This document shows positions 1,892 through 17,944 of a stretch of 64,000 nucleotides of DNA, in pieces; the first letter of the stretch is position 1, and every line of letters begins with the position of its first letter. The translations under genes were made by a program, and so were the position numbers. Origin of the DNA: Desulfurivibrio dismutans (GTDB lineage Bacteria > Desulfobacterota > Desulfobulbia > Desulfobulbales > Desulfurivibrionaceae); NCBI RefSeq assembly GCF_029210385.1, contig NZ_JARGDQ010000007.1, positions 1 to 64,000 on the forward strand, given 5' to 3'. The notes beneath the pieces were generated by a model. It was not told the origin of the DNA, made no database searches, and saw nothing but the letters and a program-made list of their open reading frames with translations.

Positions 1892-1912
1892 GGCGGAATG
1901 GGCCATAAACAC

Positions 1913-3002: not shown

Positions 3003-3241
3003 TTTCTTTTTGCTCTGATCTTATTTTTTAATAGCTCTTTCCGGTTAGTCGATAAATTTGATAGGCCACTAGAGTATTTTCCAAATATATCTTCACCTAG
3101 TTCCCAAGGGCTAGGTTGGCTCAATTTGCCAAGATATTCTGAAATGCTTTTTCTAATTAATTCTGATTTGGTCAGGCCAAGATTCTTTGCCGTATTCTGA
3201 ATAGCCTGCTCAAGTTTTGGATCTAATCTTAATGTGATCAT
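2999..3241 (-). CDS. vapB: VapB-type ribbon-helix-helix antitoxin
   Basis: From the ATG at 3241 this gives 80 aa. The N-terminus MITLRLDPKLEQAIQ followed by LGLTKSELIRKSISEYL is a typical ribbon-helix-helix DNA-binding domain. The C-terminal half, with the WELGEDIFGKYSSG segment, is the toxin-wrapping part seen in RHH partners of PIN toxins. I chose this start over an upstream extension because GGAGG lies about 8 nt before it and homologues begin at MI/MxTLRL. A palindrome lies over its promoter, consistent with autorepression by the antitoxin and its toxin complex. Confidence 0.85.
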   Translation of the reverse strand: MITLRLDPKLEQAIQNTAKNLGLTKSELIRKSISEYLGKLSQPSPWELGEDIFGKYSSGLSNLSTNRKELLKNKIRAKRK

Positions 3242-3256
3242 CGTCGTATCCTCCGT

Positions 3257-3292
3257 ATTACATATTGTAATGCGAAGGTGGATTGGTGTCAA
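3257..3292 (-). promoter_or_regulatory. vapBC promoter with operator palindrome on the -10 box
   Basis: On the minus strand, TTGACA (3287-3292) and TACAAT (3264-3269) are separated by exactly 17 nt. The perfect 15-nt palindrome ATTACATATTGTAAT (3257-3271) covers the -10 box, so repressor binding would block RNA polymerase. This is the classic layout of an autoregulated toxin-antitoxin operon. Confidence 0.75.
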
Positions 3293-3360
3293 TTTTTTCT
3301 TTTCAGTACATAATGTTCAGCATAACCGGCCGGGAAATAGTCCCCTTACCCGTCCTCTTG

Positions 3361-3399
3361 ATTGTTCCCGACCTGTATTTAATGCTTAGCTTATTGACC
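3361..3399. repeat. Direct repeat copy 2 flanking vapBC
   Basis: This is the second copy of the 39-nt repeat (see 2499-2537). It lies upstream of the vapBC promoter and about 120 nt before mutM. The pair suggests that vapBC arrived with a duplication of the original cyclo-ligase 5' flank. Confidence 0.85.
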
Positions 3400-3520
3400 G
3401 GCATGGGTTATTTAAGGTAAATTCACTGAACACGCCCGGTTGATGTAACCGGGCGTAAACTTCCAGACCATCAAACATGGACAGCGGTCAAGGGTAACGT
3501 CGCCCCACCGCGAAAAAAAT

Positions 3521-4441
3521 ATGCCTGAATTACCGGAAGTGGAAGTAGTGCGCCAAGGCCTGGAGCCTTTGGTGCTGAACCGGCAAATCGCCCGGATCAG
3601 CGCCAGCGGCCTGCCTCTGCGCCGCCCCGTGCCCCTGGCCGAACTGTGCCAATGGGGCGAAGGCGCCCGGGTGACCGGGGTGGCCCGGCGGGCCAAATAC
3701 CTGCTGCTGCACCTGGACAACGGCGCCCTGATGATCTTCCACCTGGGCATGACCGGCAAGATTTATCCGGCGACGAGTCGGGAACCGGCCCGCAAGCATG
3801 ACCACCTGGTGCTGCACCTGGCCGCCGACCGCGGACCAGCCGGGTCGTCTAACCTGCAAATTATGGAGCCCGGTGAACAGCCACCGGTAATCGAAGCCAT
3901 CCGCTTCAACGACTGCCGCCGCTTCGGGCTGGTCGCCGTCTTTGCCCCCGCCGAGGCCGCCGCCCCGCCGCTGCTGGCCGGGCTGGGGCCGGAGCCCCTG
4001 GACGAAAAGGCCTTCAGCCCCGCCTACCTGGCCCTGGCCTGCGCCCACCGGCGCACCCCGATCAAAAACCTGCTGATGGACAACAAGGTGGTGGTGGGCA
4101 TCGGCAACATCTACGCCAGCGAGGTGCTGTTTGCCGCCGGGGTGCACCCGGAAACCTTAGCCCTGGCCGTTTCCCGACCCAAGCTGAAAAAGATCTGCGC
4201 CGCCGCCCGGCAGATATTGACCCGGGCCATTGCCGCCGGCGGCACCACCATTGTCGATTTTGCCAATGCCGCCGGCGAGTCGGGCTATTTCCAGGTGCAA
4301 CTGGCCGTTTACGGGCGCGCCGGCCAGCCCTGTTGCCGTTGCGGCCGGGAAATTGCCCGCACGGTGCAGGCCGGGAGGGCGACTTATTTTTGCCCCCGGT
4401 GCCAGCGCCGCGCCAAGCCGCCGCAGCGCCGCCAGCCGTAA
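3521..4441 (+). CDS. mutM: Formamidopyrimidine-DNA glycosylase (Fpg/MutM)
   Basis: This 306-aa bifunctional glycosylase/AP-lyase removes 8-oxoguanine and formamidopyrimidines. The essential N-terminus is intact: MPELPEVEVVRQGL, with catalytic Pro2 (after Met removal) and Glu3. The beta-strand Lys is in RRAKYLLLHL. The helix-two-turn-helix contains DNKVVVGIGNIYASEVLF, and the C-terminal zinc finger is CCRCG...YFCPRCQRR. It is about 35 residues longer than the usual 270, mainly because of a linker around residues 103-125. It stands alone on the plus strand. I see no gene in the 224-nt gap after it. Confidence 0.95.
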   Translation: MPELPEVEVVRQGLEPLVLNRQIARISASGLPLRRPVPLAELCQWGEGARVTGVARRAKYLLLHLDNGALMIFHLGMTGKIYPATSREPARKHDHLVLHLAADRGPAGSSNLQIMEPGEQPPVIEAIRFNDCRRFGLVAVFAPAEAAAPPLLAGLGPEPLDEKAFSPAYLALACAHRRTPIKNLLMDNKVVVGIGNIYASEVLFAAGVHPETLALAVSRPKLKKICAAARQILTRAIAAGGTTIVDFANAAGESGYFQVQLAVYGRAGQPCCRCGREIARTVQAGRATYFCPRCQRRAKPPQRRQP

Positions 4442-4665
4442 TCAACCCGGCCCCGAATCGCAGGCTGGCCAACACCCGGGGGCCGCAGGTTGCGGCAAGC
4501 TTCGATGGCGACAGGTGATCGTTGGCAAAAAAACATTGTCTGGGCCAGAAAAACGGAACAAAATGAAGGCAGTGGCTCACTGTGTAAGTGCGAGCTGTTG
4601 CCCGCCACTCCATACAAGCAGGCCCCGATCCTGAGCTGTTAAAAACTGATTAAGGCGCCGACAAC

Positions 4666-5931
4666 ATGCCCATCGCTCAAAAAACGTCCGGCCGGACAAA
4701 GTTTTTAAAAATCATTCTGCCCCTGCTGATTCTCCTGCTGGGGTTTCTGCTCATGCAACTGCTGCTGTCCCAGCGCCGGGCGCCGGAGCCGCGGGAGGTC
4801 GAAGAACGCGGCGCCCTGGTGGAACTGCTGACCGTGCAGCCCGAGACCCGCCAGGTCTTGGTCCGGGGCAGCGGCACCGTCCGGGGGCAACAGGAAATCA
4901 GCATTATCCCCCGGGTCTCGGGCGAGGTTATCGCCCTGGGGCCGGATTTCGTCGCCGGGGGCTTTGTCCGGACCGGCGAGCTGCTCTTCCGCCTGGACCC
5001 GGCGGATTATGAACTGGCCCGGCAACGCGCCCGGGCTACGACGGCCCGAGCCGAGGCCCGGCTGGCGGAAATCTCCGAACGGGCCGCCGTCGCCCGCCAG
5101 GAGTGGCAGCGGTTTGAGCAGCGCGACGGGGCAAGGCTGGAACCCAGCCCCCTGGCCCTCTTTGAACCGCAACTGCAGGAGGCCCAAGCCGAACTGGCCG
5201 CCGCCGAGGCCGACCTGACCGCCGCCCGGCTGGACCTGGAGCGCACCTCGGTGCATGCCCCTTTCAACGCCCGGATCCGCCAGCGGCAACTGGAAATGGG
5301 CCAGTTCATCCAGGCGGGCGGCAATGTCGCCACTCTGACCGGCACCGACCAGGCGGAGATTGTGGTGCCGGTGCCCCAGGCCGAAGTCCCGTGGCTGGAG
5401 CTGCCCCGGCCGGGGGTGACGGCAAACGGCTCCCCCGCCCTGGTGAATTTTACTGTCGGCGACCAGGAGCACCAGTGGTCCGGCTTCCTGCGCCGGTCGT
5501 TGGGCGAGGTGGAAAGCCAGGGGCGGATGGTTCAACTGGTGATCGCCGTCGACGATCCCTACCAGCTTGCCGCCCCCCAGGCCACGCCGGTCTCGCTGCT
5601 GCCGGGGATGTTTGTCGGGGTTGAACTGGCCGGCCACCGCCTGGAGGAGGTCTTCGTGCTGCCCCGGCGGACTATCCGGGGAGACAGCACGGTCTGGCTG
5701 ATGGATGAAGATAGTCGCCTGCGTTTGCGCCCGGTTAATATCGTGCGCCAGGAAAAGGAAATCGCGATCGTCGACCACGGGCTGGCGGCCGGCGACCGGG
5801 TGGTGCTCACCGAGCTAACCGGCGCGGTGGACGGCATGCTGCTGCGGGCCAACAACAACCGCGAGCAGGGCGGGCAAGTGGCGGGGGCAAAACCCGAATC
5901 TAAGCCGGAACAAGGAGCCGACCGGCCATGA
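4666..5931 (+). CDS. RND efflux periplasmic adaptor (membrane fusion protein)
   Basis: The 421-aa product has an N-terminal membrane anchor (about residues 14-32, ILPLLILLLGFLLMQLLL), then a lipoyl/barrel-sandwich half (about 60-100), and an Ala/Glu/Arg-rich coiled-coil hairpin (about 120-190). The second half lipoyl piece (APFNARIRQRQLEMGQFI) and beta-barrel regions follow. Such proteins link an inner-membrane RND pump to an outer-membrane channel. Its stop overlaps the pump gene start by 4 nt (ATGA), so the two are translationally coupled. No TolC-like channel gene lies nearby, so the channel must be encoded elsewhere. The substrate is unknown. Confidence 0.9.
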   Translation: MPIAQKTSGRTKFLKIILPLLILLLGFLLMQLLLSQRRAPEPREVEERGALVELLTVQPETRQVLVRGSGTVRGQQEISIIPRVSGEVIALGPDFVAGGFVRTGELLFRLDPADYELARQRARATTARAEARLAEISERAAVARQEWQRFEQRDGARLEPSPLALFEPQLQEAQAELAAAEADLTAARLDLERTSVHAPFNARIRQRQLEMGQFIQAGGNVATLTGTDQAEIVVPVPQAEVPWLELPRPGVTANGSPALVNFTVGDQEHQWSGFLRRSLGEVESQGRMVQLVIAVDDPYQLAAPQATPVSLLPGMFVGVELAGHRLEEVFVLPRRTIRGDSTVWLMDEDSRLRLRPVNIVRQEKEIAIVDHGLAAGDRVVLTELTGAVDGMLLRANNNREQGGQVAGAKPESKPEQGADRP

Positions 5932-8900
5932 ACCGCCAGATTCAATGGATGGCCCATAACCACGTGGCCGCCACCCTGCTGCTGCTCTTCTTCACCCTGG
6001 GCGGCCTGATTACGGCCTTTACCATCAAGCAGGAGGTCTTTCCCGAGATCACCCTGGACCGGGTGACCATCACCGTCAACTATCCCGGCGCCAGCCCCGA
6101 AGAGGTTGAGGCGGGAATTGTTCTTCAGATCGAGGAGAGCATCGCCGCGGTTGACGGCATTAAAGAGATCAAATCCACCGCCGCCGAAGGACGGGCCACG
6201 GTCAACGCGGTGATCGACACCGGCGCCGACGTCGACCAGGTGCTGCAGGACATCAAGAGCGAAGTGGACCGGATCATCAGCTTTCCGGTCGATGCCGAGC
6301 AACCGGTGGTCAGCAAGGCGCTGATCCGCAGCGAGGTGATTTCGGTGGTGGTGTACGGCCCTGCCCCGGAGTTAACCTTGCGCCAGTGGGCGGAAATGAT
6401 CCGCGACGATCTGCTGGAGTTGGAGGGCATCACCCAGGTTGAACTGACCGGGGTGCGGCCCTACGAGATTTCCATCGAGCTTGACGAGGAGATGCTGCGC
6501 CGCCACCAGCTTACCCTGGAAGGGGTGGCGGCCACGGTCCGCCAGGCTTCCCAGGATATTCCCGGCGGGGTGATCAGGGCCGAGGGCGGGGAGATTCTGC
6601 TGCGCACCAAGGAGCGCCGCTATACCGGCCGGGAACATGAAGATATCGTGGTCAAGGCCGACGCCGACGGTAGCCTGCTGCACCTGGGCGACATCGCCAC
6701 GGTGCGCGACGGCTTTGAAGAGATCGACCTGATCAGCCGGTTCAACGGCCAGCCCGCCGCCATGGTCCAGGTTTTCCGGGTCGGCGACCAGAAACCCCGC
6801 GAAATTTCCGCCCTGATCCGCAATTATGTCCAGCAGCGGGAGATCGACACCGCCGAGACGGTGATCGACCTGGCCCTGTGGAACGACAACTCCGAGGTGC
6901 TGCAAAGTCGTTTTCAATTGCTGTTGAAAAACGCCGCCATCGGCCTGTTGCTGGTCTTTGTCATCTTAAGCCTGTTTCTGGAATTCAAACTTTCGCTCTG
7001 GATCATGCTGGGGCTGCCGGTCTCTTTTCTCGGGGCGCTGCTGTTCATGCCCGGCGTCGAGGTTTCCATCAACATGATGTCGCTGTTTGCCTTCATCATG
7101 GCCCTGGGGATTGTGGTGGACAACTCGGTGGTGGTGGGCGAGAGCATCCATGAACACCGGAGCCGGGGCAAGGAAAAGACCCAGGCGGCGGTGGAGGGCA
7201 CCTGGGAAGTAGCGGTGCCGGTGGTCTTTTCGGTGCTGACCACGGTAGCGGCCTTTCTGCCGCTGCTTTTCATCACCGGCACCATGGGCAAGTTCATCTA
7301 TTCAATTCCCCTGGTGGTGATCAGCATTCTGCTGGTCTCCCTGGCGGTCTCTCTCTTTGTTCTGCCCGCCCTGCTGGGCCGCCGGGAGAATGTTCCGGTC
7401 CCCAGCTCCGGGCTGGTGGGCAAAATCAAGGAGCTGCACCGGCGAGTCAATGACCTGCTGCAGGAGCTGATCAACGGCCCCTACCGGCGCACCCTGGACT
7501 TCTGCCTGCAGTATCGCGGCATCACCCTGGCCGCCGCCCTGGTCATGCTGATGCTGGCCGTCGGTGTGGTGGGAGGCGGGGTTGTCCAGTTTCGCTTCAT
7601 GCCGGAGGTGGAGGGTGACACCATCCTGGTGGAACTGGAGATGCCCCAGGGCACCCTGGTGGAGGATACGGCCCGGGTCGAGGCCTTCATTGTGGAACAG
7701 GCTCAACAGGCCATCGCCGAGTTCGACGCCCGGCGAAAGGATGATCGCACCATCTTACGCCACCTCTATTCCATCATCGGCGGGACCGCGGCCCAGGGCG
7801 GTCCCGGCGGGGGCGGCGGCGACAGCGGCACCCACCTGGCCACCACCACCCTCTTTTTACAGCCCGCCGAGGTCCGCGAGGTGCCGGCCGCCGAGGTGGC
7901 CGCCCGCTGGCGGGAACTGGTGGGGGAGATTCCCGGCGTCCGCTCGCTGAGCTTTACCACCGACCTGGTACGTTTCGGCGACCACATCGATGTCCAGCTG
8001 GCCCACGACGACTTCGACACCCTGCTCACCGTCCGTGACCACCTGCAGGAGGAACTGGCCAAATACACCGGGGTCGGCGATATCGCCGACAATTTCCCCG
8101 AGGGCAAAAGAGAGCTGACCCTGCGCCTTAAACCGGCGGCCCGCAGCCTGGGGGTAACCGAGGAAGAGCTGGGGCGCCAGGTGCGCGGCGCCTTTTTCGG
8201 GGCCGAGGCCCTGCGGGTACAGCGGGGCCGCAACGAGGTCAGGGTCATGGTCCGCTATCCCGAGATGCAGCGGCGCAGTGTCTGGGACCTGGAACAGATG
8301 ACCATCCGCACCCCGGCCGGCGGCGACGTTCCCCTGCTCCAGGCCGCCGAGGTTATCGACGGCCGGGGCTTTGCCGCCATCAATCGCACCGACCGCAAAC
8401 GGGTGATCAATGTCACCGCCAGTGTCGACGAGCGCCAGGCCAATGCCGAGGAGATCCTGGCCGACCTGCAAAGCTCGGTCCTGGCTGAATTGATGGCCGA
8501 TTTTCCGGGGCTCAGCTATGACCTGGAAGGGGAGGAAAAGGAGCGTCGGGAGTCCATGGGCAGCATGGCCCGGGGCTTTCTGCTGGCCCTGTTCGCCATC
8601 TACGCCCTGCTGGCTGTCCCGCTGCGGAGTTACATTCAGCCGCTGATCATCATGGCCGCCATCCCCTTCGGGATCGTCGGCGCCCTGCTGGGGCATCTGC
8701 TGCTGGGTTATAATTTGAGCATCCTGAGCGTGTTCGGCATCGTCGCTCTGTCCGGGGTGGTGGTCAACAACTCGCTGCTGCTGATTGACCGGATCAACCG
8801 CAACCGTCGCCAGCAGGGCTATGAGGGCGACTTGGGCAACTTGGACAATCGGCAGCAACCGCCGGACGGCCCAAGCCTGCCCAACGGCCCGGCAGGGCTG

Positions 8901-9161
8901 GGGAGATCAGAAGGTTCCGCCCGCGCCGCCACTACCCGCGAAGCGGTAATCGACGCCGGATGCCGCCGCTTCCGCCCCATCCTGCTCACCTCGCTGACCA
9001 CCTTCGGCGGTCTTTTTCCCATGATCCTCGAAACCAGCGTGCAGGCCCAGTTCCTGATCCCCATGGCCATCAGCCTGGGCTTCGGGGTGCTCTTCTCCAC
9101 CTTCATCACCCTGGTGCTGGTGCCCACCCTCTATATGGTACTGGAAAGGGAGCATACGTAG
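5928..9161 (+). CDS. RND-family efflux transporter permease (AcrB/MexF-like)
   Basis: The 1077-aa product is the normal length for an RND pump: a first membrane helix near residues 12-32, a large periplasmic domain, a helix bundle around 330-480 including FIMALGIVVDNSVVVGE (the helix with the proton-relay Asp), a second periplasmic domain, and a final bundle around 870-1070. It starts INRQIQWMAHNHV-like and keeps the YPGASPEEVE segment typical of the family. Two low-complexity insertions stand out: a Gly-rich run near 620-635, and a hydrophilic Gly/Pro/Asn loop near 970-1005 between membrane helices. The adaptor gene directly upstream completes a two-gene operon. It probably exports hydrophobic toxicants, but the substrate cannot be read. 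Confidence 0.93.
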   Translation: MNRQIQWMAHNHVAATLLLLFFTLGGLITAFTIKQEVFPEITLDRVTITVNYPGASPEEVEAGIVLQIEESIAAVDGIKEIKSTAAEGRATVNAVIDTGADVDQVLQDIKSEVDRIISFPVDAEQPVVSKALIRSEVISVVVYGPAPELTLRQWAEMIRDDLLELEGITQVELTGVRPYEISIELDEEMLRRHQLTLEGVAATVRQASQDIPGGVIRAEGGEILLRTKERRYTGREHEDIVVKADADGSLLHLGDIATVRDGFEEIDLISRFNGQPAAMVQVFRVGDQKPREISALIRNYVQQREIDTAETVIDLALWNDNSEVLQSRFQLLLKNAAIGLLLVFVILSLFLEFKLSLWIMLGLPVSFLGALLFMPGVEVSINMMSLFAFIMALGIVVDNSVVVGESIHEHRSRGKEKTQAAVEGTWEVAVPVVFSVLTTVAAFLPLLFITGTMGKFIYSIPLVVISILLVSLAVSLFVLPALLGRRENVPVPSSGLVGKIKELHRRVNDLLQELINGPYRRTLDFCLQYRGITLAAALVMLMLAVGVVGGGVVQFRFMPEVEGDTILVELEMPQGTLVEDTARVEAFIVEQAQQAIAEFDARRKDDRTILRHLYSIIGGTAAQGGPGGGGGDSGTHLATTTLFLQPAEVREVPAAEVAARWRELVGEIPGVRSLSFTTDLVRFGDHIDVQLAHDDFDTLLTVRDHLQEELAKYTGVGDIADNFPEGKRELTLRLKPAARSLGVTEEELGRQVRGAFFGAEALRVQRGRNEVRVMVRYPEMQRRSVWDLEQMTIRTPAGGDVPLLQAAEVIDGRGFAAINRTDRKRVINVTASVDERQANAEEILADLQSSVLAELMADFPGLSYDLEGEEKERRESMGSMARGFLLALFAIYALLAVPLRSYIQPLIIMAAIPFGIVGALLGHLLLGYNLSILSVFGIVALSGVVVNNSLLLIDRINRNRRQQGYEGDLGNLDNRQQPPDGPSLPNGPAGLGRSEGSARAATTREAVIDAGCRRFRPILLTSLTTFGGLFPMILETSVQAQFLIPMAISLGFGVLFSTFITLVLVPTLYMVLEREHT

Positions 9162-9175
9162 AGCATTAATTACCC

Positions 9176-9292
9176 TTACAACATGGCCGCACCCATCACC
9201 CACAGACCGATGGCGGTGGCGATCTGGGTCTTGTCGCCCATCTCCGTCAGGAAAAAGAGCACAAAGGTGGTGATGAAGGCCGTTTTGGGGAT
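9176..9292 (-). pseudogene. Relic of a UPF0016/GDT1-family cation transporter
   Basis: On the minus strand a 38-codon frame closed by stops at both ends contains FFLTEMGDKTQIATA. The E-x-G-D-K-T/S signature is the hallmark of the UPF0016 (GDT1/TMEM165, Mn2+/Ca2+ exporter) family, where it occurs in two transmembrane repeats of a protein of about 190-200 aa. Here only the core of one repeat survives, fused to an unrelated tail. No start codon with a ribosome site is visible, so I read it as a gene remnant. Confidence 0.6.
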
Positions 9293-9525
9293 CTATTTTT
9301 TGTTGACATGCCGGTCGGCTGTAACTATTCAGTACGAAGTGACGGTTTTGAACAGACAAGCTGCACGGGTTTGTCGCTGGCACCCCGTACAGTTTGCCAG
9401 GACTCCGTAAGGGACTACGTATCAACTCACCTATCACCTGCTACTCACGGAGCTGAAAAAGCACGGGACGAATACAGCGACTTTCCCCTCCCCAGAAAAT
9501 CATTCCAATATACAAGGAGATTAAT
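9293..9525. other. Gap with no gene, upstream of the ferritin-like gene
   Basis: I see no convincing coding frame or RNA structure here. The last 10 bases contain AAGGAG, the ribosome binding site of the downstream gene. A TTGACA occurs at 9302-9307, but no well-spaced -10 box follows. Confidence 0.4.
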
Positions 9526-9984
9526 ATGGAACTGGAACGATGCCGTCAGGCCATTGAAAGTGCCATACAGAGCGAGATAGATGCCAGAAAATTTTATGAG
9601 CAGGTTGGTGAACGGATCAAGGATAGCTACCTTAAAGAGGTGTTTGCCGAGTTTGCCCAGGAAGAGGCCAAGCATGAGAAGATCCTGACCGAAATCCTGG
9701 AGCAGAAAAAAGTGAATGTCGCTCATTTTGACTTTCAAACGGATTTTCATGTGTCAGAGACCATTAAAATGCCAAAGGTTTCTGCAGAAATGGACCTGAA
9801 GAGTGCGATCGGCCTGGCCATGAAAAACGAAGAGATCGCCATGAAAAAATATACCAGCCTGGCGGAAAACTGTATCGACCCTGAATTGAAATCTGTTTTC
9901 ATGAGCCTGGCAGCAATGGAACGGAGCCACAAGCATATTATGGAAGAAAAATTTGTGGATGTGGCCTACCCTGAGGTGTGGTAG
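9526..9984 (+). CDS. Rubrerythrin-like ferritin-fold diiron protein
   Basis: The 152-aa protein has a four-helix ferritin-like fold with two similar halves. The metal-ligand pattern is visible: Glu in SEIDARKFYE, E-x-x-H in EEAKHEK, Glu in AMKNEEIAMKKY, and E-x-x-H in MERSHKHIMEE. There is no C-terminal rubredoxin domain with CxxC pairs, so it belongs with short rubrerythrin or Fe-storage-like proteins rather than classical rubrerythrin. In anaerobes these usually reduce peroxide or handle iron. AAGGAGA sits 8 nt before the ATG. Its codon use is more AT-rich than that of the operon downstream. It is monocistronic. Confidence 0.85.
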   Translation: MELERCRQAIESAIQSEIDARKFYEQVGERIKDSYLKEVFAEFAQEEAKHEKILTEILEQKKVNVAHFDFQTDFHVSETIKMPKVSAEMDLKSAIGLAMKNEEIAMKKYTSLAENCIDPELKSVFMSLAAMERSHKHIMEEKFVDVAYPEVW

Positions 9985-10035
9985 GGAATCGTTTCAAAAA
10001 TAAAGTGCCGGGCGATCATTTATCGCCCTTTGCCC

Positions 10036-10147: not shown

Positions 10148-10192
10148 TTCAGCTACTAAGACCGGAACAAGGCTCCGGTCTTAGTAGCTGAA
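10148..10192. other. 19-bp perfect hairpin
   Basis: Arms 10148-10166 and 10174-10192 are perfect complements with a 7-nt loop. It is followed by AAAAG rather than T-residues on the plus strand. It lies between the ferritin-like gene and the next promoter, so it may separate the transcription units. Confidence 0.7.
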
Positions 10193-10211: not shown

Positions 10212-10240
10212 TTGACAACCGGCCCGGCGGTTGTTATCTA
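10212..10240 (+). promoter_or_regulatory. Sigma-70-type promoter of the metal-uptake operon
   Basis: TTGACA (10212-10217) and TATCTA (10235-10240) are spaced by exactly 17 nt, about 57 nt before the first ATG of the operon. A strong GGGGAGG ribosome site (about 10284-10290) precedes that ATG. I see no clear operator palindrome. Confidence 0.75.
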
Positions 10241-10296
10241 CAGGGCACCAGTAACACAAAATAATAATATATAACAATATTCCGGGGAGGTCCAAA

Positions 10297-11067
10297 ATGG
10301 TATTGCAACGCTACAAAACCGACCACAACATGCTGTTTTCGGGGGTTATCTTACTGGGACTGCTGACTTTGGGACCATTGCTGGCAGCCCCGGCGACCGC
10401 CGGCACTCTGCAGTTTTACGCCAATGGGGAAGAACTGGTCACCGAGGGTTTTCTGGCCCCCAAGCTGACCAAAGACGGCTGGCGCCTGACCTTTTCCCAC
10501 GCCTATGTCACCCTGGCCGAGATTACCGCCTACCAGACCTCCCCTCCTTTTGACCCCCACGATCATAAAGACATCATCGCGGCGCAACGGATCAGCCTGC
10601 TTGGGGTGCATACCGTGGACCTGGCCGCCGGCACCGACGACGACCCGCCGGTACAGGTGGGTGAAGCAAGCCCGGCTCCGGCGGGACATTACAACGCCAT
10701 TTCCTGGCGGATGCAACCTGCCGCTTCCGGGCCGGCCAAAGGTTACTCCATGCTGCTGATCGGCCAGGCCAGCAAAGGCGACCGGAAGGCTGAATTCACC
10801 ATCGGCACCCGGGAAGAAGCCGTTTATCAATGCGGCGAGTTTGTCGGGGACCAGCGCAAGGGTTTTCTCACCGCCGGCGGCAGCGCCGACCTGGAGATGA
10901 CCTTTCACTTCGATCACCTCTTTGGCCGGGCCGACAAGGCGGCTGACGCCCCCGTGAACCTGGCGGCCCCGGGCTTTACCCCCTTTGCCGCCGCCGGCAA
11001 AGTCCACGAAATCAGCATGGATGGCCTGCACCTGGGCCACGCCGGCGAAGGCCATTGCCGCCAGTAG
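10297..11067 (+). CDS. Secreted protein of unknown family, first gene of the ABC/FmdE operon
   Basis: The 256-aa protein starts with a signal peptide (hydrophobic stretch about 13-30, cleavage near APATAG), so it is exported to the periplasm. The mature part is rich in beta-strand-like segments. It contains a His-rich patch DPHDHKD, a Cys in YQCGEFVG, and a C-terminal FHFDHLFG followed by GLHLGHAGEGHC, which could bind a metal. I do not recognise the family with certainty; it only loosely recalls periplasmic metal-binding partners such as MbnP-like proteins. Ten nt separate it from the next gene, and it is the promoter-proximal gene of a seven-gene operon ending in fmdE. A metal-capture role is inferred from context and His content. 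Confidence 0.75.
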   Translation: MVLQRYKTDHNMLFSGVILLGLLTLGPLLAAPATAGTLQFYANGEELVTEGFLAPKLTKDGWRLTFSHAYVTLAEITAYQTSPPFDPHDHKDIIAAQRISLLGVHTVDLAAGTDDDPPVQVGEASPAPAGHYNAISWRMQPAASGPAKGYSMLLIGQASKGDRKAEFTIGTREEAVYQCGEFVGDQRKGFLTAGGSADLEMTFHFDHLFGRADKAADAPVNLAAPGFTPFAAAGKVHEISMDGLHLGHAGEGHCRQ

Positions 11068-11077
11068 AAGAAAAATC

Positions 11078-11626
11078 ATGTTGATCAGGACCAAACAATC
11101 ATACCGGGCGTTGGCGTCTGGACGAACCAGGAGCGTCAATCTGCCGGGCCTGCCTGTGCTGATGGCATTTTCAGCGCTGCTGATCGGCCTTGGCGGGCTG
11201 CTCCTGCCGGCTCCACCGGCGGCGGCCCACGGAGCCCTGGTGGAATACCGCCCGGCGCCGGGTATTGTCATCGAGGCCCGTTACGATACCGGGCAACCCA
11301 TGGCGGAGGCCCAAATCATCGTTTACGCCCCGGACAACCCCACCGAAGCCTGGCACACCGGGACCAGCGATCAGCACGGCCGCTTCAGCTTCGTGCCGGA
11401 CCCGGAGTTGACCGGTACCTGGACGGTGCAGGCCCGGCAGGGTGGCCACGGCGCCATGGCCCATATCGAGCTGGCCGCCGCGGACACACAACAGAAGGAT
11501 CAAGCCACCGGCCCCGCCGCCGGGCCGCCGGCCACCACCTCCGGCCAGCGCTGGCTGATGGCCGGGGCGGTGATCTGGGGCTTTATCGGCACCGCCCTTT
11601 TCTTCCGTCGTCGGCCCAAAAACTGA
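11078..11626 (+). CDS. Membrane-anchored periplasmic Ig-like/carboxypeptidase-regulatory domain protein
   Basis: From the ATG at 11078 this gives 182 aa: an N-terminal signal or anchor (about 28-50, ending PPAAAHGALVEYR), a small beta-sandwich (about 52-135) with the GQPMAEAQIIVYAP pattern of DUF4198 / carboxypeptidase-regulatory-like domains, a Pro/Ala linker, and a C-terminal membrane helix (about 160-177) followed by RRRPKN. After signal cleavage the first residue would be a His (AHG). Similar small proteins (NikL-, NikM- and CbiN-like partners) accompany nickel and cobalt transporters, which fits this operon. The in-frame upstream extension overlaps the previous gene and is not needed. 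Confidence 0.75.
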   Translation: MLIRTKQSYRALASGRTRSVNLPGLPVLMAFSALLIGLGGLLLPAPPAAAHGALVEYRPAPGIVIEARYDTGQPMAEAQIIVYAPDNPTEAWHTGTSDQHGRFSFVPDPELTGTWTVQARQGGHGAMAHIELAAADTQQKDQATGPAAGPPATTSGQRWLMAGAVIWGFIGTALFFRRRPKN

Positions 11627-11645
11627 AAAAACCCGACCGGCGACC

Positions 11646-11675
11646 ATGTCACCCCACTCCATGTCACCCCACTCC
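11646..11675 (+). repeat. Tandem 15-nt duplication
   Basis: ATGTCACCCCACTCC occurs twice head-to-tail (11646-11660 and 11661-11675), just upstream of the likely start of the binding-protein gene. If translated in frame it would encode MSPHS twice. It probably lies in the leader. Confidence 0.85.
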
Positions 11676-11723
11676 ATGACGATCCGGCAAAAAGTCCACG
11701 AATGTACTGGAAGGAATAGCGGA

Positions 11724-13322
11724 ATGTCCTCTGCCTTACTACGCAACCTGACCATAGTAAGTGTTTTTTTGCTGCTGCTGGGCGGCGGCCCGGCAACAAC
11801 GTCCTACGCCGGAAATGAAACCCGTACATTAAAGATTGCCGACGGCCGGGGCGACTGGGGATACCCCAACCCTTTTCTCCACTACCCCCGGGGGGTGGGT
11901 TATATTCGAATGTCCTGGGTGTTCGACACCCTGGTCTGGAAAGATGAAAGCGGCTTCATCCCGGCCCTGGCCCAGGAGTGGTCCTACGACCCGGAGCACC
12001 TGGCCTTCACCTTCAAGCTCAACCCCAAGGCCCGCTGGCATGACGGCGAACCCCTGACCGCCGCCGACGTGGTCTTCACCGTCGCATATTTCCAAAAACA
12101 CCCCTACCACTGGGTCATGCTGGACCATGTCAAGGAAGCCAAGGCCATCGACCGCCACACCGTAACCATCTTCCTGACCCGGCCCTACGCCCCCTTTATC
12201 TCCAATATCGGCGGCATCATGCCGATTCTGCCCCGCCACATCTGGCAGGAGGTCAGCGACCCCCGTAATTTTAACGAACCCAGCGCCTTTATCGGCAGTG
12301 GTCCCTACGTTTTCAAGAATTTCGACCAGGCCCGGGGCAGTTACCTTTACGAGGCCTTTGCCGATTATTACCAGGGCCGGCCCACGGCGGAGCGCCTTAT
12401 TTACCTGCGGGCCGGCCAGCCCCTAGTGGCCCTGACCGGCGGCCAGGCCGACCTGGCCAACATCCGCCCGGAGATGGCGGCCCAACTGCGGCAACGGGGT
12501 TTTGAAATTATTAGCGACCAGCGGGGCTGGAACAAAAAGCTGATGATCAACCACCGCCGCGCTCCCTTCAACGAGCGCAAATTCCGCCAGGCCCTGGCCC
12601 ATGCCATCGACCGCCGGGAAATCATCGACCGGGCGCACCGGGGCTTTGGCGCCCCAGCCTCCTACGGCCTGCTCAGTGTTGACCACCCGATGTACAACCC
12701 GGACACCCCCGATTACCCCACCGACCAGGCCAAGGCCCGGCAGTTGCTGGAACACCTGGGCTACCGGGCCGACGCCCAGGGCTATTACCACCGCGACGGC
12801 CGGCCCCTCAAGGTGGAACTGCTGGCCTCCACCATCACCGCCGCCGGCGAAACCGCCGCCGACCGTGATGGCGAGGTAATCCGCCGGCAACTTAACGCCG
12901 TGGGCATCCGGGTGGAGCTGGTCAACCTGGAGCAGGCCACCACCGACAGTCGGGTGCGCAACTGGCAGTTTGATCTGGCCCTTTCCGGTCATGGCGGCAT
13001 CGGCGGCGATCCCCTGATCCTGGTGGAGATGATCTCCGGCGAGGTCGGGGCCGGGTCCGTCAACAGCGCCCGGTTTGACGACAACCCGGAACTTGCCCGC
13101 CTGCTGCGCGAACAGATGACCGCCATGGACCCCGATGAGCGTCGGCGGCTGGTGCACCGCATCCAGGAGTTGCACGCCCTGGAGGTACCGGCCATCCCCC
13201 TCTACTACCCCGATTCCCTGGCCGCTTATCAACCGGCCAAAGGGGTACGGTGGTTCTTTACCCCCGGCGGTATCGGCAAGGGTGTGCCCATCCCCCAGAA
13301 CAAGGTTTCCCTGCTGCCCTGA
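11724..13322 (+). CDS. ABC importer substrate-binding protein, nickel/peptide (NikA/DppA) family
   Basis: The 532-aa protein (from the ATG at 11724) has a signal peptide (LTIVSVFLLLLGGGPATTSYA) and the layout of family 5 extracellular solute-binding proteins: VFDTLVWKDESG and AQEWSYDPEHLAFTFKLNPKARWHDGEPLTAADVVFT near residues 70-125, then KLMINHRRAPFNERKFRQALAHAIDRREI around 275-300. It captures a substrate in the periplasm and delivers it to the permeases encoded next. Peptides, nickel chelates and heme are all known ligands of this family. The neighbours (FmdE, His-rich ATPase) favour a metal or metal complex, which is inference. An alternative in-frame start at 11646 would add 26 unusual residues ahead of the signal peptide. 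Confidence 0.88.
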   Translation: MSSALLRNLTIVSVFLLLLGGGPATTSYAGNETRTLKIADGRGDWGYPNPFLHYPRGVGYIRMSWVFDTLVWKDESGFIPALAQEWSYDPEHLAFTFKLNPKARWHDGEPLTAADVVFTVAYFQKHPYHWVMLDHVKEAKAIDRHTVTIFLTRPYAPFISNIGGIMPILPRHIWQEVSDPRNFNEPSAFIGSGPYVFKNFDQARGSYLYEAFADYYQGRPTAERLIYLRAGQPLVALTGGQADLANIRPEMAAQLRQRGFEIISDQRGWNKKLMINHRRAPFNERKFRQALAHAIDRREIIDRAHRGFGAPASYGLLSVDHPMYNPDTPDYPTDQAKARQLLEHLGYRADAQGYYHRDGRPLKVELLASTITAAGETAADRDGEVIRRQLNAVGIRVELVNLEQATTDSRVRNWQFDLALSGHGGIGGDPLILVEMISGEVGAGSVNSARFDDNPELARLLREQMTAMDPDERRRLVHRIQELHALEVPAIPLYYPDSLAAYQPAKGVRWFFTPGGIGKGVPIPQNKVSLLP

Positions 13323-13328
13323 GCGATA

Positions 13329-14288
13329 ATGAACACACGTCACCAGCCCCTTTACGCCTACCTGCTGGCCGCCCTGGTCATGGTCGGCCTGAGCTACGGC
13401 CTGCCGCTGCTTTTGCCGGGCGATTACATCGAGGCGGTTTACGGCTCCTCACAGGTGGTCCTGGATGCCGAGCAGGAGGCCCAACTCCGGCAAGAGCTGG
13501 GTGGCCGGAAGGGTTTTGCGGCCCACCTTTGGGGCCTGGTCACCCTGGACTGGGGCCATTCCCTGGCCCTGCAGACCCCGGTTTCCCGCCTGGTGCTGGA
13601 AGCCCTGCCCTGGACCCTGCTGTTGCTGGGCACTGCCCATCTCCTGGCCCTGGTCCTGGGCTTTATCGCCGGGGTGGAAGCGGCCTGGCGGCGGGGCGGG
13701 CGACTGGAAAAGGCCGGGGTCGGGGGCGCCACCATGCTCCAGGGGGTGCCGGAGATCGGCAGCGGAGTCCTGTTGCTGCTGCTGTTTGCCTACCACCTGG
13801 GCTGGTTTCCCGCCGGCGGGGCCACCACCGCCTATGCCGAGCTCAGCGGCGGCCCCTGGCTGCTGGATGTCCTCCATCACCTGGCCCTGCCCCTGCTCAC
13901 CCTGGTACTGGCCTACCTGCCGGGCAATTTTCTGCTTACCCGGGCCGGCATGGTGATGATCCTGGGCAGCCCCTACCTGGAAACCGCCCGCGCCAAGGGG
14001 CTGCCGCCCCTGCGGGTACGCTACGTCCACGCGGCCCGCAACGCCCTGCTGCCGGTGCTGACCCGTTTCGGCCTGCGCCTGGCCTTCATGATCACCGGCG
14101 CCCTGGTGGTGGAGACCATCTTCGCCTACCCCGGCCTGGGCACGCTGCTGTTCACCGCCATCGGCAGCCGCGATTTGCCGGTGATCCAGGCGGTGGTGCT
14201 GCTGGCGGCCCTGCTGATGCTTTTGATCAACCTGGGGCTGGCCCTGCTCCACCGGCGACTGGACCCAAGGATCGGCCATGCCCTCTGA
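13329..14288 (+). CDS. ABC importer permease, NikB/DppB type
   Basis: The 319-aa inner-membrane protein has about six hydrophobic segments. It has the family's N-terminal layout (a first helix, then a periplasmic region with GDYIEAVYG) and a C-terminal cytoplasmic coupling loop, ETARAKGLPPLRVRYVHAAR (about residues 218-237), the EAA-type motif that contacts the ATPase. It starts 6 nt after the binding-protein stop and overlaps the next gene by 11 nt, so the transporter genes are tightly coupled. The likely substrate is as for the binding protein. Confidence 0.9.
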   Translation: MNTRHQPLYAYLLAALVMVGLSYGLPLLLPGDYIEAVYGSSQVVLDAEQEAQLRQELGGRKGFAAHLWGLVTLDWGHSLALQTPVSRLVLEALPWTLLLLGTAHLLALVLGFIAGVEAAWRRGGRLEKAGVGGATMLQGVPEIGSGVLLLLLFAYHLGWFPAGGATTAYAELSGGPWLLDVLHHLALPLLTLVLAYLPGNFLLTRAGMVMILGSPYLETARAKGLPPLRVRYVHAARNALLPVLTRFGLRLAFMITGALVVETIFAYPGLGTLLFTAIGSRDLPVIQAVVLLAALLMLLINLGLALLHRRLDPRIGHAL

Positions 14289-15111
14289 GTTTAACCGTAT
14301 CCGCCGCGACCCCTGGCTGACCGTCGGCCTGCTGCTGTTACTGCTGCTGGCCGGTCTGAGCCTGCTGGGGCCGCTGCTGACCCCCCACGACCCCCACGAT
14401 ATGTCCTTCATGCCCTTAAGCACCCCTTCGGCCCAGCATTGGCTGGGGGTCAACGACGGCGGCATGGATATCTACTCCGAGCTGGTCCACAGCCTGCGCA
14501 ACACCCTCTGGTTCGGCCTGCTGGCCGGGGTCTGCGGCCTGCTGCTGGGCGCAACCGGCGGCCTGGCGGCGGCCTGGTACGGCGGCTGGCTCGACCAGCT
14601 TTTGATGCGGCTGGCCGACATTATTCTGGCCCTGCCCGCCATTTTAGTACTGATCCTGCTGGCCGCCTTTTTCCGGCCCGACCCGGCCTGGCTGGCCCTG
14701 ACCCTGGCCGCGCTGGCCTGGCCCAACAGCGCCAAGGTGATCCGGGCCCAGGCCCTGGGCCTGAAAAACCAACTCCACCTCCAGGCGGCCCGGCGGATGG
14801 GGGCCTCGGTCGGCTACCTGCTCCGCCGTCATCTGCTGCCCGAACTCTTTCCGCTCTATCTGGTGGCCCTGGCCGCCAAGATCCGGATGGCGGTCTTCAT
14901 GGAGGCCACTTTGGCCTTTCTCGGCCTTTTTGACCCGGCTCGCAAGTCCCTGGGGATGATGATCAGCTATGCCCTGAAATATTATTACCTGGAAATCTGG
15001 CCCTACTGGCTGCTGCCCCCCATCATCTGCCTGACCCTGCTGATCATGGGCGCCACCTTCCTGGCCGTGAGCCTGGAAAAATTTTTCGACCCCCGCCTGC
15101 GCGAGCTGTGA
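14278..15111 (+). CDS. ABC importer permease, NikC/DppC type
   Basis: The 277-aa inner-membrane partner permease has an N-terminal helix (LTVGLLLLLLLAGLSLLGPLL), then the TPHDPHDMSFMPLSTPSAQHWLGVNDGGMDIYSEL segment characteristic of DppC/NikC (usually GTD.xGRD). The EAA loop follows near residues 155-180 (VIRAQALGLKNQLHLQAARRMG). The usual GTDxxGRD reads GVNDGGMD here, a modest deviation. It overlaps nikB-like and ends 9 nt before the ATPase gene. Confidence 0.9.
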   Translation: MPSEFNRIRRDPWLTVGLLLLLLLAGLSLLGPLLTPHDPHDMSFMPLSTPSAQHWLGVNDGGMDIYSELVHSLRNTLWFGLLAGVCGLLLGATGGLAAAWYGGWLDQLLMRLADIILALPAILVLILLAAFFRPDPAWLALTLAALAWPNSAKVIRAQALGLKNQLHLQAARRMGASVGYLLRRHLLPELFPLYLVALAAKIRMAVFMEATLAFLGLFDPARKSLGMMISYALKYYYLEIWPYWLLPPIICLTLLIMGATFLAVSLEKFFDPRLREL

Positions 15112-15120
15112 GCTGAAGCG

Positions 15121-16983
15121 ATGAAAACGGAAATCAAACAACTGACGGTGACCTACCGGGAGGATGACCACCGGCTGCTGGCCCTGGACCGGGTGGACCT
15201 GCAACTGCTACCGGGCCGGATCACCGCCCTAGTGGGGGAATCCGGCTCCGGCAAGACCACCCTGGGCAAGGCGCTGCTGGGCCTGCTGCCACCGGCGGCG
15301 ACGGTTGACGGCCAAATCCTGCTGGGTGAGGATGACCTCACCGCTCTGGATGAAACCGCCCGCAACCAATTGCGCTGGCGGCGGGCGGCGGTGGTGCCGC
15401 AAAACGGGGCGGCGGCCCTCAACCCGGCTTACCGCCTGCTGGACCAGGTGGCGGAACCACTGCGCCGGCAGCGGGGCGTCAAGCGCCGGGAGGCCGAGGA
15501 GCGCGCCCTGGCGGGGCTGGCCGAACTGGGGCTGGACCGAGACCAGGCCCGCCGCTATCCCCATGAACTAAGCGGCGGCCAGGTGCAGCGAGGCCTGCTG
15601 GCCATGGCCCTGATTTTAGACCCGCCCCTGCTGATCCTGGACGAACCCACCGCCGCCCTGGACTGCCTGAGCAAAAACCACCTGGCCCAGCTCTTCCGCC
15701 GCCTGGCCGCCCAGCAAAAAAGCCTGCTGCTGATTACCCACGACCTGGCTCTGGCTCGGCAAACCGCCGACCAGGCGGCGGTGATCTACCTGGGCCGGAT
15801 CATGGAATACCTGCCCGCCGGCCAACTGGACCGGGCCCGTCATCCGTACACTGTGGCTCTCTATCGTTCCTTTCCGGGGATGGATGCGGTCCGCGATCTG
15901 GGCGGCATTCGCGGCGATGCCTTCTACCGCCTCCTGCACGCCCATCCCGCCGTAAACGTCCAGCAGCACCGCACCTGCGGGCACGATCACCAACATCTGG
16001 TCACTCCGGCCAGCAACCACCCGGAAGAACACGCGCCGCCCGGCGCCGACGAGGACGGCCACGCGCCGGCGGCTGGCTGCCTCTTCGCTCCGCGCTGCAC
16101 CCAGGCCGAGGACGCCTGCCGCCGGGAAGCTCCGGCCCTGAACCGTCTGCGGGAGCCGGACGCCCCCCAGCCGGATATTGACCAGGGCCACGAACACCAA
16201 ATTCGCTGCCGGCGGGGCGGCATTATCGACCTGCTGTGCTGCCGGAAAACCAGCAAAAGCTACGGCCCGGTGACGGCCCTGCACCCCGTGGACCTGGAAC
16301 TGCGGGCCGGCGAGGTCTGCTGCCTGGTGGGGGAATCGGGTTCCGGCAAGACCACCCTGGCCATGCTGGCCGCCGGGGCGCTGGAGCCGGACCGCGGCCG
16401 GGTGAGTTTTGCCGGCCGGGATCTGGCGGACTGGCGGCGCCGCGATCCCCTGGGGCTGGCTGCCCGGATCGGCATCATCCACCAGCAACCGGCCGAGGCG
16501 GTAAGCCACCGCTTCACCGTCTTTGAGATCGTGGCCGAACCCTTGCGTATTCAACGCCCGGACCTGGATGCCGCCGCCCTTGAACAGCGGGTGCTGACCA
16601 GCTTGGCCGAGGTCCGCCTGGCCACCCAGCCGGAATTTCTGCGCCGCTACCCCCATCAGTTGAACCTGGGGGCCATCCAGCGCCTCTGCCTGGCCCGGGC
16701 CCTGATCCAGCAACCGCAACTGCTGGTGGCCGACGAGCCCACCAGCGCCCTGGACCCCAGCGTCCAGGCCAAGGTGCTCAAGCTGCTGCTGGAGTTGCAG
16801 ATTGAAAAGGGGCTGACCCTGCTGCTGGTCACCCACGACCTGGGGCTGGCCCGCAAAATCGCCGACCGGCTGGCGGTAATGGAGGCCGGCCGCCTGGTGG
16901 AAAGCGGCCCGGCGGCCCGGGTACTGAGTCGACCGGCGCATTCCTGCACCGCCCGCCTCATAGCCGCCGCGACAACCACTTGA
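15121..16983 (+). CDS. Fused double ATPase (NikD-NikE type) with His-rich linker
   Basis: The 620-aa protein joins two ABC ATPase domains normally encoded by separate genes. Half 1 has Walker A GESGSGKTT (39-47), signature LSGGQVQR (150-157) and Walker B LILDEPTAALD (171-181). Half 2 has Walker A GESGSGKTT (404-412) and Walker B LLVADEPTSALD. Its signature, however, reads LNLGAIQR instead of LSGGQxQR, so one of the two ATP sites is probably degenerate. Between the halves, residues 271-360 hold 11 His plus the oligopeptide-transporter Cys motif GCLFAPRC (319-326). The His-rich part is not usual for the family and could bind Ni, Zn or Cu. It powers the importer encoded directly upstream. Confidence 0.9.
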   Translation: MKTEIKQLTVTYREDDHRLLALDRVDLQLLPGRITALVGESGSGKTTLGKALLGLLPPAATVDGQILLGEDDLTALDETARNQLRWRRAAVVPQNGAAALNPAYRLLDQVAEPLRRQRGVKRREAEERALAGLAELGLDRDQARRYPHELSGGQVQRGLLAMALILDPPLLILDEPTAALDCLSKNHLAQLFRRLAAQQKSLLLITHDLALARQTADQAAVIYLGRIMEYLPAGQLDRARHPYTVALYRSFPGMDAVRDLGGIRGDAFYRLLHAHPAVNVQQHRTCGHDHQHLVTPASNHPEEHAPPGADEDGHAPAAGCLFAPRCTQAEDACRREAPALNRLREPDAPQPDIDQGHEHQIRCRRGGIIDLLCCRKTSKSYGPVTALHPVDLELRAGEVCCLVGESGSGKTTLAMLAAGALEPDRGRVSFAGRDLADWRRRDPLGLAARIGIIHQQPAEAVSHRFTVFEIVAEPLRIQRPDLDAAALEQRVLTSLAEVRLATQPEFLRRYPHQLNLGAIQRLCLARALIQQPQLLVADEPTSALDPSVQAKVLKLLLELQIEKGLTLLLVTHDLGLARKIADRLAVMEAGRLVESGPAARVLSRPAHSCTARLIAAATTT

Positions 16984-17026
16984 CATCAATCAATTTTATT
17001 CAACAATTCAGCATGGAGGCAAAAAA

Positions 17027-17635
17027 ATGTCCTGTACCCTCTCCCCCGAAACCATCAAACAAGTAACCGAATTTCACGGCCACTGGTGTCCGGGCTTGGC
17101 CATCGGCCTGCGGGCCGCCGAGTGGGCCCTACGTGAAATGGGTCGCTCCGGCGACGAGGAAATAGTGACAGTGGTGGAAACCGACATGTGCGGCGTTGAT
17201 GCCATCCAGGCGCTGGTGGGCTGCACTTTCGGCAAGGGCAACCTGATCCATCTCGATTACGGCAAAAACGCTTTCACCTTCCACCGCCGCCGGGACGGCA
17301 AGGCGGCCCGGCTGGTGGCCAGCTCCTGCCTCTTCGGGGAATCCCGCCAGGAGCTGGGCCGGCTGATGGCCAAACAAAAACAGCAGGTGTTGAACCCGGA
17401 GGAGCAGCAGCGCCTGGCCGACCTGCGAGCGGAAATCTCCCACCAGACCATGTCCGCCCCTTTTGAGGAACTGTTCACCATTAAGGCCGCCGGCCCGCTG
17501 CCCGCCAAGGCTCGGATCATGAACAGCCTCACCTGCGAGGAGTGCGGCGAAGGCACCATGGAGAGCCGCACCCGCCGGTTCCAGGAGAAGACTCTGTGCA
17601 TCCCCTGCTTCGCCGACCGGGAAAGGAGGCTTTAG
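17027..17635 (+). CDS. FmdE family protein
   Basis: The 202-aa protein has the FmdE domain (about 12-140) with HGHWCPGLAIGLRAAEWAL at the start and ETDMCGVDAIQALVGCTFGKGNL, whose Cys and His residues form the family's metal site. A C-terminal CxxC...CxxC zinc ribbon follows (about 174-196, CEECG and CIPCF). FmdE was first seen with molybdenum formylmethanofuran dehydrogenase of methanogens. Its bacterial role is unsettled, and it often lies beside ABC importers and metalloenzyme genes. Here it is the last gene before a terminator, 43 nt after the ATPase gene. A part in handling the imported metal or cofactor is inference. Confidence 0.9.
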   Translation: MSCTLSPETIKQVTEFHGHWCPGLAIGLRAAEWALREMGRSGDEEIVTVVETDMCGVDAIQALVGCTFGKGNLIHLDYGKNAFTFHRRRDGKAARLVASSCLFGESRQELGRLMAKQKQQVLNPEEQQRLADLRAEISHQTMSAPFEELFTIKAAGPLPAKARIMNSLTCEECGEGTMESRTRRFQEKTLCIPCFADRERRL

Positions 17636-17636
17636 G

Positions 17637-17694
17637 GCCCGTCGCCCCACCAGCTCCCCCACCATCCGCCCACGGACGACGGGCGAGCTTTTTA
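17637..17694 (+). terminator. Intrinsic terminator after fmdE
   Basis: GCCCGTCG (17637-17644) pairs with CGACGGGC (17677-17684) and is followed by GAGCTTTTTATT. It lies directly after the fmdE stop and closes the operon that began at the 10212 promoter. Confidence 0.75.
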
Positions 17695-17944
17695 TTGTTT
17701 CATTTTTTTCTTTAATTTCCCTTTAACACGAAATCCATGCCCATAATTATGGCCATATGCCCACAACAGAAAGTGGTGCTCGAACCGATAAACCACGTCA
17801 GCGCCGCTGCTCTACGTGATCAATTTCGCCCTGAGCACCCTGGTGGGCCGAGGCAATCCCGAACCCGCAACGGGCGCTGATCATTTTCAGCCCGTTAAAG
17901 CAACAGGTTTTAATCTAGCCGAACAGATGCGACAATTCATCACG
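17695..17944. other. Gap with a possible membrane-protein fragment
   Basis: A short plus-strand frame near 17796-17850 reads LLYVINFALSTLVGRG, which looks like one helix of a membrane transporter but has no start, no upstream continuation and no stop context. It may be a relic. Otherwise I see nothing functional in this stretch. Confidence 0.3.

Follow-up and report, generated by a model that had tools for sequence, protein, structure and literature searches.

Does a run of genes that places two secreted proteins in front of a complete importer constitute one dedicated route for a metal, or is it a composite of systems that are separate in other genomes? The question is raised by seven genes in a stretch of 64,000 nt from Desulfurivibrio dismutans (NCBI RefSeq assembly GCF_029210385.1, contig NZ_JARGDQ010000007.1, positions 1 to 64,000), the whole of which is referred to here as the window. 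The seven open reading frames (ORFs) are co-directional on the + strand and span 10297-17635, with intergenic gaps of 10, 97, 6, -11, 9, and 43 bp in order. We concluded that they are a join of parts of two known importer kinds and not one conserved system, because FmdE keeps with the importer in relatives and the two secreted proteins keep with NikM elsewhere; one of the seven genes represents an unnamed family. As for function, we give roughly even credence to a NikR-controlled nickel-starvation operon of two modules, in which the secreted pair most likely serves a NikMQO transporter in trans. The product of 10297-11067 is called P1 and that of 11078-11626 P2, substrate-binding protein is abbreviated as SBP, module 1 stands for SBP-B-C-ATPase-FmdE and module 2 for P1-P2, and labels of the form L### and G### denote the stretches and genomes compared.

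10231-10257, + strand: NikR-box-like operator, TTGTTAT-N13-GTAACAC, with 2 mismatches to the delta-proteobacterial consensus
10297-11067, + strand: P1, secreted, unnamed family with an MbnP-like predicted fold (AlphaFold2 model; no family of note)
11078-11626, + strand: P2, NikL-like beta-sandwich protein with signal peptide and C-terminal membrane helix (NF058648, 39.1 bits, curated cut-off 100)
11724-13322, + strand: SBP, SBP family 5 (PF00496, E 3.7e-70)
13329-14288, + strand: permease, NikB/DppB type (PF00528; top NCBIfam match Opp2B, under cut-off)
14278-15111, + strand: permease, NikC/DppC type (PF00528, OppC_N)
15121-16983, + strand: importer ATPase of NikD/NikE type with two fused domains (ABC_tran matched twice in a single chain)
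17027-17635, + strand: FmdE, core domain and C4 zinc finger, with metal-site motif HGHWC...C (PF02663, 149.9 bits, cut-off 22.9)
17642-17694, + strand: terminator-like hairpin with T-run (fold z -3.76 for 17630-17710)

Two modules and their distribution

The initial annotation described seven genes on one strand closed by a terminator and including a NikA/DppA-type SBP, two permeases, a fused ATPase, and FmdE, and in this it was correct: the ORFs were found as described, and the Pfam families were SBP_bac_5, BPD_transp_1 (twice), ABC_tran (twice), and PF02663. The predicted folding energy of the RNA of 17630-17710 is -24.5 kcal/mol, with shuffled sequences averaging -15.7, and a T-run is present; the hairpin 3' of fmdE was missing from the output of a simple terminator scanner. 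The single promoter that had also been proposed was not recovered: TTGACA is present at 10212, but the promoter scan lists none beginning there. The scan gave TCTACA-17-AATAAT at 10237-10265 (9/12 match), and because its best match (10/12) directly precedes fmdE, at 16980-17007, this gene may have a start of its own. The SBP ORF opens at 11646, and its start is most likely at 11724, judging from a better ribosome-binding site and a signal-peptide start at that position.

In a search of 146 genomes of the order, the SBP returned its own genome and four orthologues at 53-64% identity, followed by a drop to 28% (E 6e-38), and a profile search of 395 genomes of the phylum gave 17 with E <1e-80, including the window's own and G195. 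At the 19 Desulfobacterota importer loci whose neighbourhoods were read (4 from the order, 15 from the phylum), FmdE lay on the same strand as the SBP in 15, and it accompanied the importer in all ten loci whose SBP was at least 57% identical to that of the window or of L034. It was missing at L202 and L206, where the contig ends just past the SBP, and at L208 and L209. The window's order, SBP-B-C-ATP-FmdE, recurred in seven loci (L196-L201 and L210), with the SBP split over two ORFs in L201. Neither P1 nor P2 was found at any of the 19 loci, and P1 was present in one of the 395 phylum genomes by profile search, single-sequence and profile searches both returning the window's own copy only. 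The linkage that the initial annotation expected among relatives was thus borne out for FmdE and not for P1-P2, and the idea of one dedicated seven-gene route has to be given up. What can be kept from it is a metal import operon, with nickel as the probable metal, that encodes a secreted pair of helpers together with FmdE, a cytosolic protein bearing a metal-site motif.

Relatives of P1 were found in other groups, in named genome contigs, by which the possibility of P1 as an orphan gene was rejected; searches for P1 in plasmids and viral contigs gave no match. The contig scan gave 103 relatives, of which the best 80 were kept as the loci counted here, and these are by title from Chloroflexota (23), Bacillota (19), Pseudomonadota (8), Thermodesulfobacteriota, Fermentibacterota, and Cyanobacteriota (5 each), Actinomycetota (4), and Myxococcota (2), with nine bearing no phylum. 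P2 followed P1 within 400 bp in 74/80 loci and within 6.5 kb in 76/80, and a NikM gene lay downstream of P1 in 70/80, usually with NikQ and NikO; matches to CbiM and CbiQ were confirmed in L037 and CbiM in L105. Among the loci lacking NikM, four have the pair alone with at least 2 kb read downstream (L036, L038, L039, L040), three have no P2 by script (L052, L082, L111, with L082 having a second P1 with P2), and three offer too little sequence (L076, L081, L100). P1-P2 are thus normally the front part of an energy-coupling factor (ECF) importer, P1-P2-M-Q-O.

In L105, this order continues with DUF3842 and FmdE and then with ORFs read by eye as hypA, hypB, and a [NiFe] hydrogenase, and in L074, a Chloroflexota metagenome-assembled genome (MAG), P1-P2-M-Q-O is directly followed by a complete SBP-B-C-ATP-ATP importer (110-9996). 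L096 has a NikB-like permease immediately before P1-P2-M. Horizontal transfer of the pair was considered, as P1 is so rare in the phylum and the window P1 groups with those of Thermodesulfobacteriota, Brachymonas, and Pseudomonadota MAGs, for which binning errors are possible. Fourteen of the 80 loci bear sample codes that we take to be those of soda-lake sites, where carbonate would bind nickel; the ecological link is a guess.

The secreted pair

The two secreted proteins had been put forward as novel, and this holds for P1. Its sequence found nothing better than E 0.085 in Pfam (0.11 in the scan of the window proteins) and nothing at E<=1 in NCBIfam, and no credible match came from searching PDB sequences with a profile of P1 (best E 0.33), so that P1 is a family without a name in the two protein libraries searched. 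Weak matches to DUF4382 were seen in 9/53 P1 members (best E 8.9e-5), and some members touch lipoprotein-type models too. The candidate identity of P1 as NikK (DUF4198) was rejected, as the ten families that the 53 members hit at E<=0.1 do not include PF10670; the NikK-type protein in L170 scores 211.6 bits with that model.

To place P1 by structure, we used an AlphaFold2 model (pLDDT 89, pTM 0.87), for which the six best Foldseek matches were all MbnP chains (E 0.016-0.085; TM 0.41). VIA-align superposed P1 and MbnP (7l6g) with a Z of 9.6 over 176 residues at 3.7 A, the next best match having 5.8 and best Z values of 7-8 being common without kinship. Predicted fold is therefore suggestive, but not proof, of kinship with MbnP. 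No MbnP family appeared among the Pfam matches of the 53 members, and the window P1 is without WxW, the MbnP motif in which the first Trp is converted to kynurenine. Nine proteins of the window were scanned without a match of the MbnH type, and the gene downstream of the operon at 18054-19517 matches Cytochrome_C554 (Pfam). P1 had been called His-rich, a generous label for 12 His in 256 residues; what counts is that six positions, H204, D206, and H207 (FHFDH) and H248, E251, and H253 (HxxEGH), are invariant with at most one exception in 79-81 sequences. These HxDH and HxxEGH residues are candidate metal ligands, and the family is widespread and probably metal-binding.

P2, in turn, is not novel in kind and appears to be a distant NikL, a described accessory. 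It falls under the curated NikL cut-off, and the NikL model was matched by all 47 of 47 P2 members at E<=0.001; in Pfam, it comes just under the cut-off for CarboxypepD_reg. A signal peptide was read from the sequence without a signal-peptide program, one C-terminal membrane helix is present, and the predicted model consists of beta strands and a helix at 105-127. H51 is invariant (77/77) and lies at the expected signal-peptide cut, between AxA and HG, by which the mature N-terminus of P2 would be a free His, a typical metal ligand; H124, in a GHG motif, is invariant as well (76/76). The best Foldseek matches of the P2 model were Zcp structures, some with cobalt or copper.

The metal and the partner transporter

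The SBP is best judged not to be NikA: its score with the NikA equivalog TIGR02294 is 127.9 bits, with the cut-off of 393 not reached. The two permeases are under the cut-offs of the NikB and NikC NCBIfam models, and the fused ATPase is over those of NikE and NikD, but on the sum of two domains. In a distant alignment, the window SBP and its four orthologues hold Pro/Ala, Met, and Gly/Ser/gap at the positions of the NikA ligand residues, which we take to be Arg97, Arg137, and His416. Together with the binding of peptides by family-5 SBPs, this would suit an importer of the peptide or opine type, in which module 1 carries peptides or small metabolites, the adjoining metal genes being incidental, but we regard such an importer as quite improbable in view of the FmdE linkage at 15/19 loci, the NikR-box-like site in the window, and the other importer neighbours, which point to metal. 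NicO-type genes were found in L033 and L034 (2/19; Pfam NicO confirmed for L034) and CooT beside FmdE in L205. TonB-dependent receptors were found in L034, L200, L204, and L207 (by Pfam in L034, L204, and L207) and by eye in L201, and flavin reductase genes in L201 and L204.

The window FmdE combines its PF02663 match with a DksA/TraR zinc finger, and the residues of the HxHxC...C metal site are kept in 14/14 FmdE proteins chosen for alignment. A crystal structure of an FmdE protein is described, in the available text of PMC2954224, as having one site with mixed Zn/Ni occupancy. The link of FmdE to metal transport is already known in general, because the same text (section 3.7) states that most FmdE genes adjoin metal-ion transporters. 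Further FmdE arrangements were seen in passing. FmdE is fused to a TrmO_N domain at L205:5905-6978, and a TrmO_N gene overlaps the ATPase gene at L034:5902-6381; a DUF3842 gene lies near FmdE both in an SBP-type cluster (L197:595-1008) and in an ECF-type cluster (L105:4430-4894); and a second FmdE of its genome lies at L121:9319-9909, near genes that by eye are regulator-like and MoeA-like.

NikR boxes were searched for with the delta-proteobacterial consensus of PMC545781 (Table 4). The site in the window is its sole match with <=2 mismatches, against 0.075 expected per shuffled window (40 shuffles). Across the relatives, nine boxes of this quality lay in 26 kb upstream of P1 (8/77 usable loci) and four in 1.0 Mb elsewhere in the same loci, an 87-fold higher density before P1; the corresponding counts were 4 and 0 at <=1 mismatch and 15 (13 loci) and 88 at <=3, and L085 holds a perfect match. 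Because of this density and of the linkage to NikM, P1-P2 appear to be extracytoplasmic components of a nickel importer of the ECF type. For the importer of module 1, a NikR box as a conserved feature was rejected, since 12/15 phylum loci have none with <=2 mismatches and L032, L033, and L035 have none even at <=3. Boxes with <=2 mismatches lie about 450 bp before CooT in L205 and away from the operon in L200 and L208. The cluster of L034 (G418) has a 1-mismatch box (3891-3917) at its distal end, 67 bp ahead of a minus-strand gene (1614-3824) that resembles those of TonB-dependent receptors. Upstream of the window operon there are also a rubrerythrin/ferritin-like gene (9526-9984, Pfam) and, between the two, a perfect 19-bp inverted repeat with a 7-bp loop (10148-10192), which is single-copy in the window.

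An Rfam scan of L032-L035 and 10 of the 15 further importer loci found a single riboswitch, the cobalamin one in L032, and riboswitch control of the importer was rejected, as it points away from fmdE. It precedes, at L032:12793-14178, a CbiK with a signal-peptide-like N-terminal extension, divergent from the fmdE-SBP operon. The same scans placed a PYLIS_2 pyrrolysine insertion element at L203:11111-11210, beside the importer locus of G279. Cobalt, or a nickel/cobalt mixture feeding corrinoid synthesis rather than hydrogenases, could be the cargo: the importer of L032 is divergent from cbiK and from B12 transport and synthesis genes read by eye, and some NikK1ML1QO systems are predicted to carry cobalt in the part of PMC2667541 available. 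We consider this unlikely, since that riboswitch is not directed at fmdE, P1 is preceded by NikR boxes more often than expected from the rest of its loci, L105 lies at an apparent hydrogenase cluster, and CooT (L205) and NicO-type genes (L033, L034) occur beside the importer.

Nickel thus remains the likely metal. In the NikR-controlled reading, module 1 would be an ABC importer whose family-5 SBP takes up a nickel complex, and the cytosolic FmdE would receive the imported metal on its HxHxC...C site, or sense metal. P1, as a putative metalloprotein of the MbnP fold, and the anchored P2 would gather Ni(II) outside the inner membrane, with the invariant His at the mature N-terminus of P2 taking part; the likeliest recipient would be the NikM-NikQ-NikO that another contig encodes, and the SBP of their own operon may be fed as well. 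Gene content, order, and distribution, residue conservation, the predicted fold, and the NikR-box-like sites are what the analyses show; we infer nickel as the metal here, the ligand and the handover steps, NikR control, the partnership in trans, metal binding by P1 and P2, and the role of FmdE.

The source genome, a near-complete 2.84-Mb assembly of 33 contigs in the same genus group as G195, has NikR, and its NikMQO lies on another contig with no K, L, or N gene beside it. A 1-mismatch NikR box directly precedes nikR-nikM-nikQ-nikO, and G195 and G399 likewise have a 1-mismatch box where nikR begins. For the large subunit of [NiFe] hydrogenase the source genome gives four matches, three of full length and one broken into two pieces within a single frame, and the P1 and P2 of the window are its only matches to either protein. 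Its NikM is at least 44% identical to 61/70 P1P2-linked NikMs (median 50%, range 39-62%) and 39-44% identical to seven NikMs of the other NikMQO type, the ranges overlapping. The L039 and L040 genomes, whose P1-P2 are also unlinked, likewise have NikMQO elsewhere with no accessory genes beside it; for L036 the contig ends, and in the L038 genome CbiM was not found. P1-P2 may accordingly serve NikMQO in trans.

Several observations weigh against this account. The box in the window departs from the consensus at 2 positions and has the convergent form, whereas the one at nikR in the same genome has the reversed form; 69/77 P1 loci have no box with <=2 mismatches, and neither do the importer loci L032, L033, and L035, as given above. 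The SBP is without the NikA ligand residues, the cbiK and cobalamin riboswitch adjoining the L032 importer make cobalt possible for it, and the Ni-containing FmdE protein had passed over nickel resin, so that its nickel may be an artefact (available text of PMC2954224). NikMQO without accessory genes is also found in the same-genus genomes G195, G218, and G399, and because P1 was not found in the two searched, G195 and G218, and all three are without a strong P2 match, a bare NikMQO is no proof of partnership. In a quick tree of NikM (85/110 rows, after dropping four short rows and 21/28 NikMN-type rows), the NikMs of genomes with unlinked P1-P2 fell in the other clade, not with the P1P2-linked NikMs, and approximately unbiased (AU) tests favoured neither group as the place of the genus NikM (p 0.59, 0.375).

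That tree placement, the short gaps within a shared operon, and the meeting of both importer kinds near P1-P2 in L074 and L096 would be expected if P1-P2 had become helpers dedicated to the SBP importer by recruitment, handing nickel or a nickel complex to the SBP and not to NikMQO. We hold such a recruitment to be unlikely, though deserving second place after service to NikMQO in trans, as the absence of P1 and P2 at the importer relatives implies that the importer does not need helpers, and the five nearest P1 relatives have the pair with no adjoining transporter (L036, L038, L039, L040) or with M-Q-O (L037). A further reading, less likely than not, makes P1-P2 a portable module that delivers nickel on the outer side of the inner membrane and is not tied to one transporter kind, in which P1 as carrier and P2 with its free N-terminal His would hand nickel to an ECF NikM or to an SBP importer; NikM itself starts Met-His. 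If true, the pair would be a nickel counterpart of periplasmic copper delivery, with loci in eight named phyla that are partly under NikR.

Comparison with known systems

The closest described arrangement for module 2 is NikKMLQO. NikL is described as an accessory of ECF nickel importers in the available parts of PMC545781 and PMC2667541, and NikK and NikL were proposed from gene context to be periplasmic nickel-binding parts (PMC545781); nikK and nikL apart from nikMQO are described there for Desulfovibrio vulgaris (PMC545781, PMC2667541). The likeness lies in the NikL-like P2, in the position of P1-P2 ahead of NikM in most relatives, NikQ and NikO usually being present too, and in NikR boxes that are present at a minority of P1 loci but strongly enriched. 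In contrast, P1 stands in the place of NikK without matching the DUF4198 model, and the window pair lies on another contig than M-Q-O and is joined to an SBP importer. With P1 as a candidate component that has a metal-protein-like fold, a strict set of candidate ligands, and, at some of its loci, a NikR signature, the question of how NikK and NikL work becomes testable with single proteins. Among the matches listed for the open-access literature, proteins like P1 or MbnP were not joined with ECF nickel importers, nor FmdE with TonB and nickel.

Module 1 resembles NikABCDE and the Opp/Nik/Dpp importers in its family-5 SBP, two permeases, and NikD/NikE-type ATPases, and differs in the fusion of the latter, in FmdE as fifth gene, in the absence of the NikA ligand residues, and in the P1-P2 in front. 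A Nik/Opp/Dpp operon with a TonB-dependent receptor is described for cable bacteria in the available part of PMC11247825, and receptor genes near some of our relatives recall it. The cable-bacteria Opp1A-like genes were found in no other Desulfobulbales according to that part, and the present importer (5/146 order genomes, its own counted) may be another branch.

P1 resembles MbnP of the methanobactin operons (7l6g) in its predicted fold, suggestively as stated above, shares with it secretion and a metal-homeostasis context, which is one of nickel and not copper, and differs in lacking an MbnP family match, the WxW motif, and an MbnH-type gene in its operon. For P2, the best match was Zcp (9mhk and 9mhn; apo mutant and cobalt-bound) at E 2.5e-3, but unrelated beta-sandwich domains follow from E 5e-3, and we claim no kinship from this likeness of a predicted model. 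The window FmdE has the core domain, HxHxC...C site, and C4 zinc finger of other FmdE proteins (PF02663; 2gvi, 2glz, 3d00) and differs from them in belonging to a nickel-type importer operon and not to a formylmethanofuran dehydrogenase, a linkage that gives a possible bacterial role, in nickel entry, to a family named after methanogenesis. Set beside these systems, the interest of the locus lies in P1 itself and in the join of two importer kinds.

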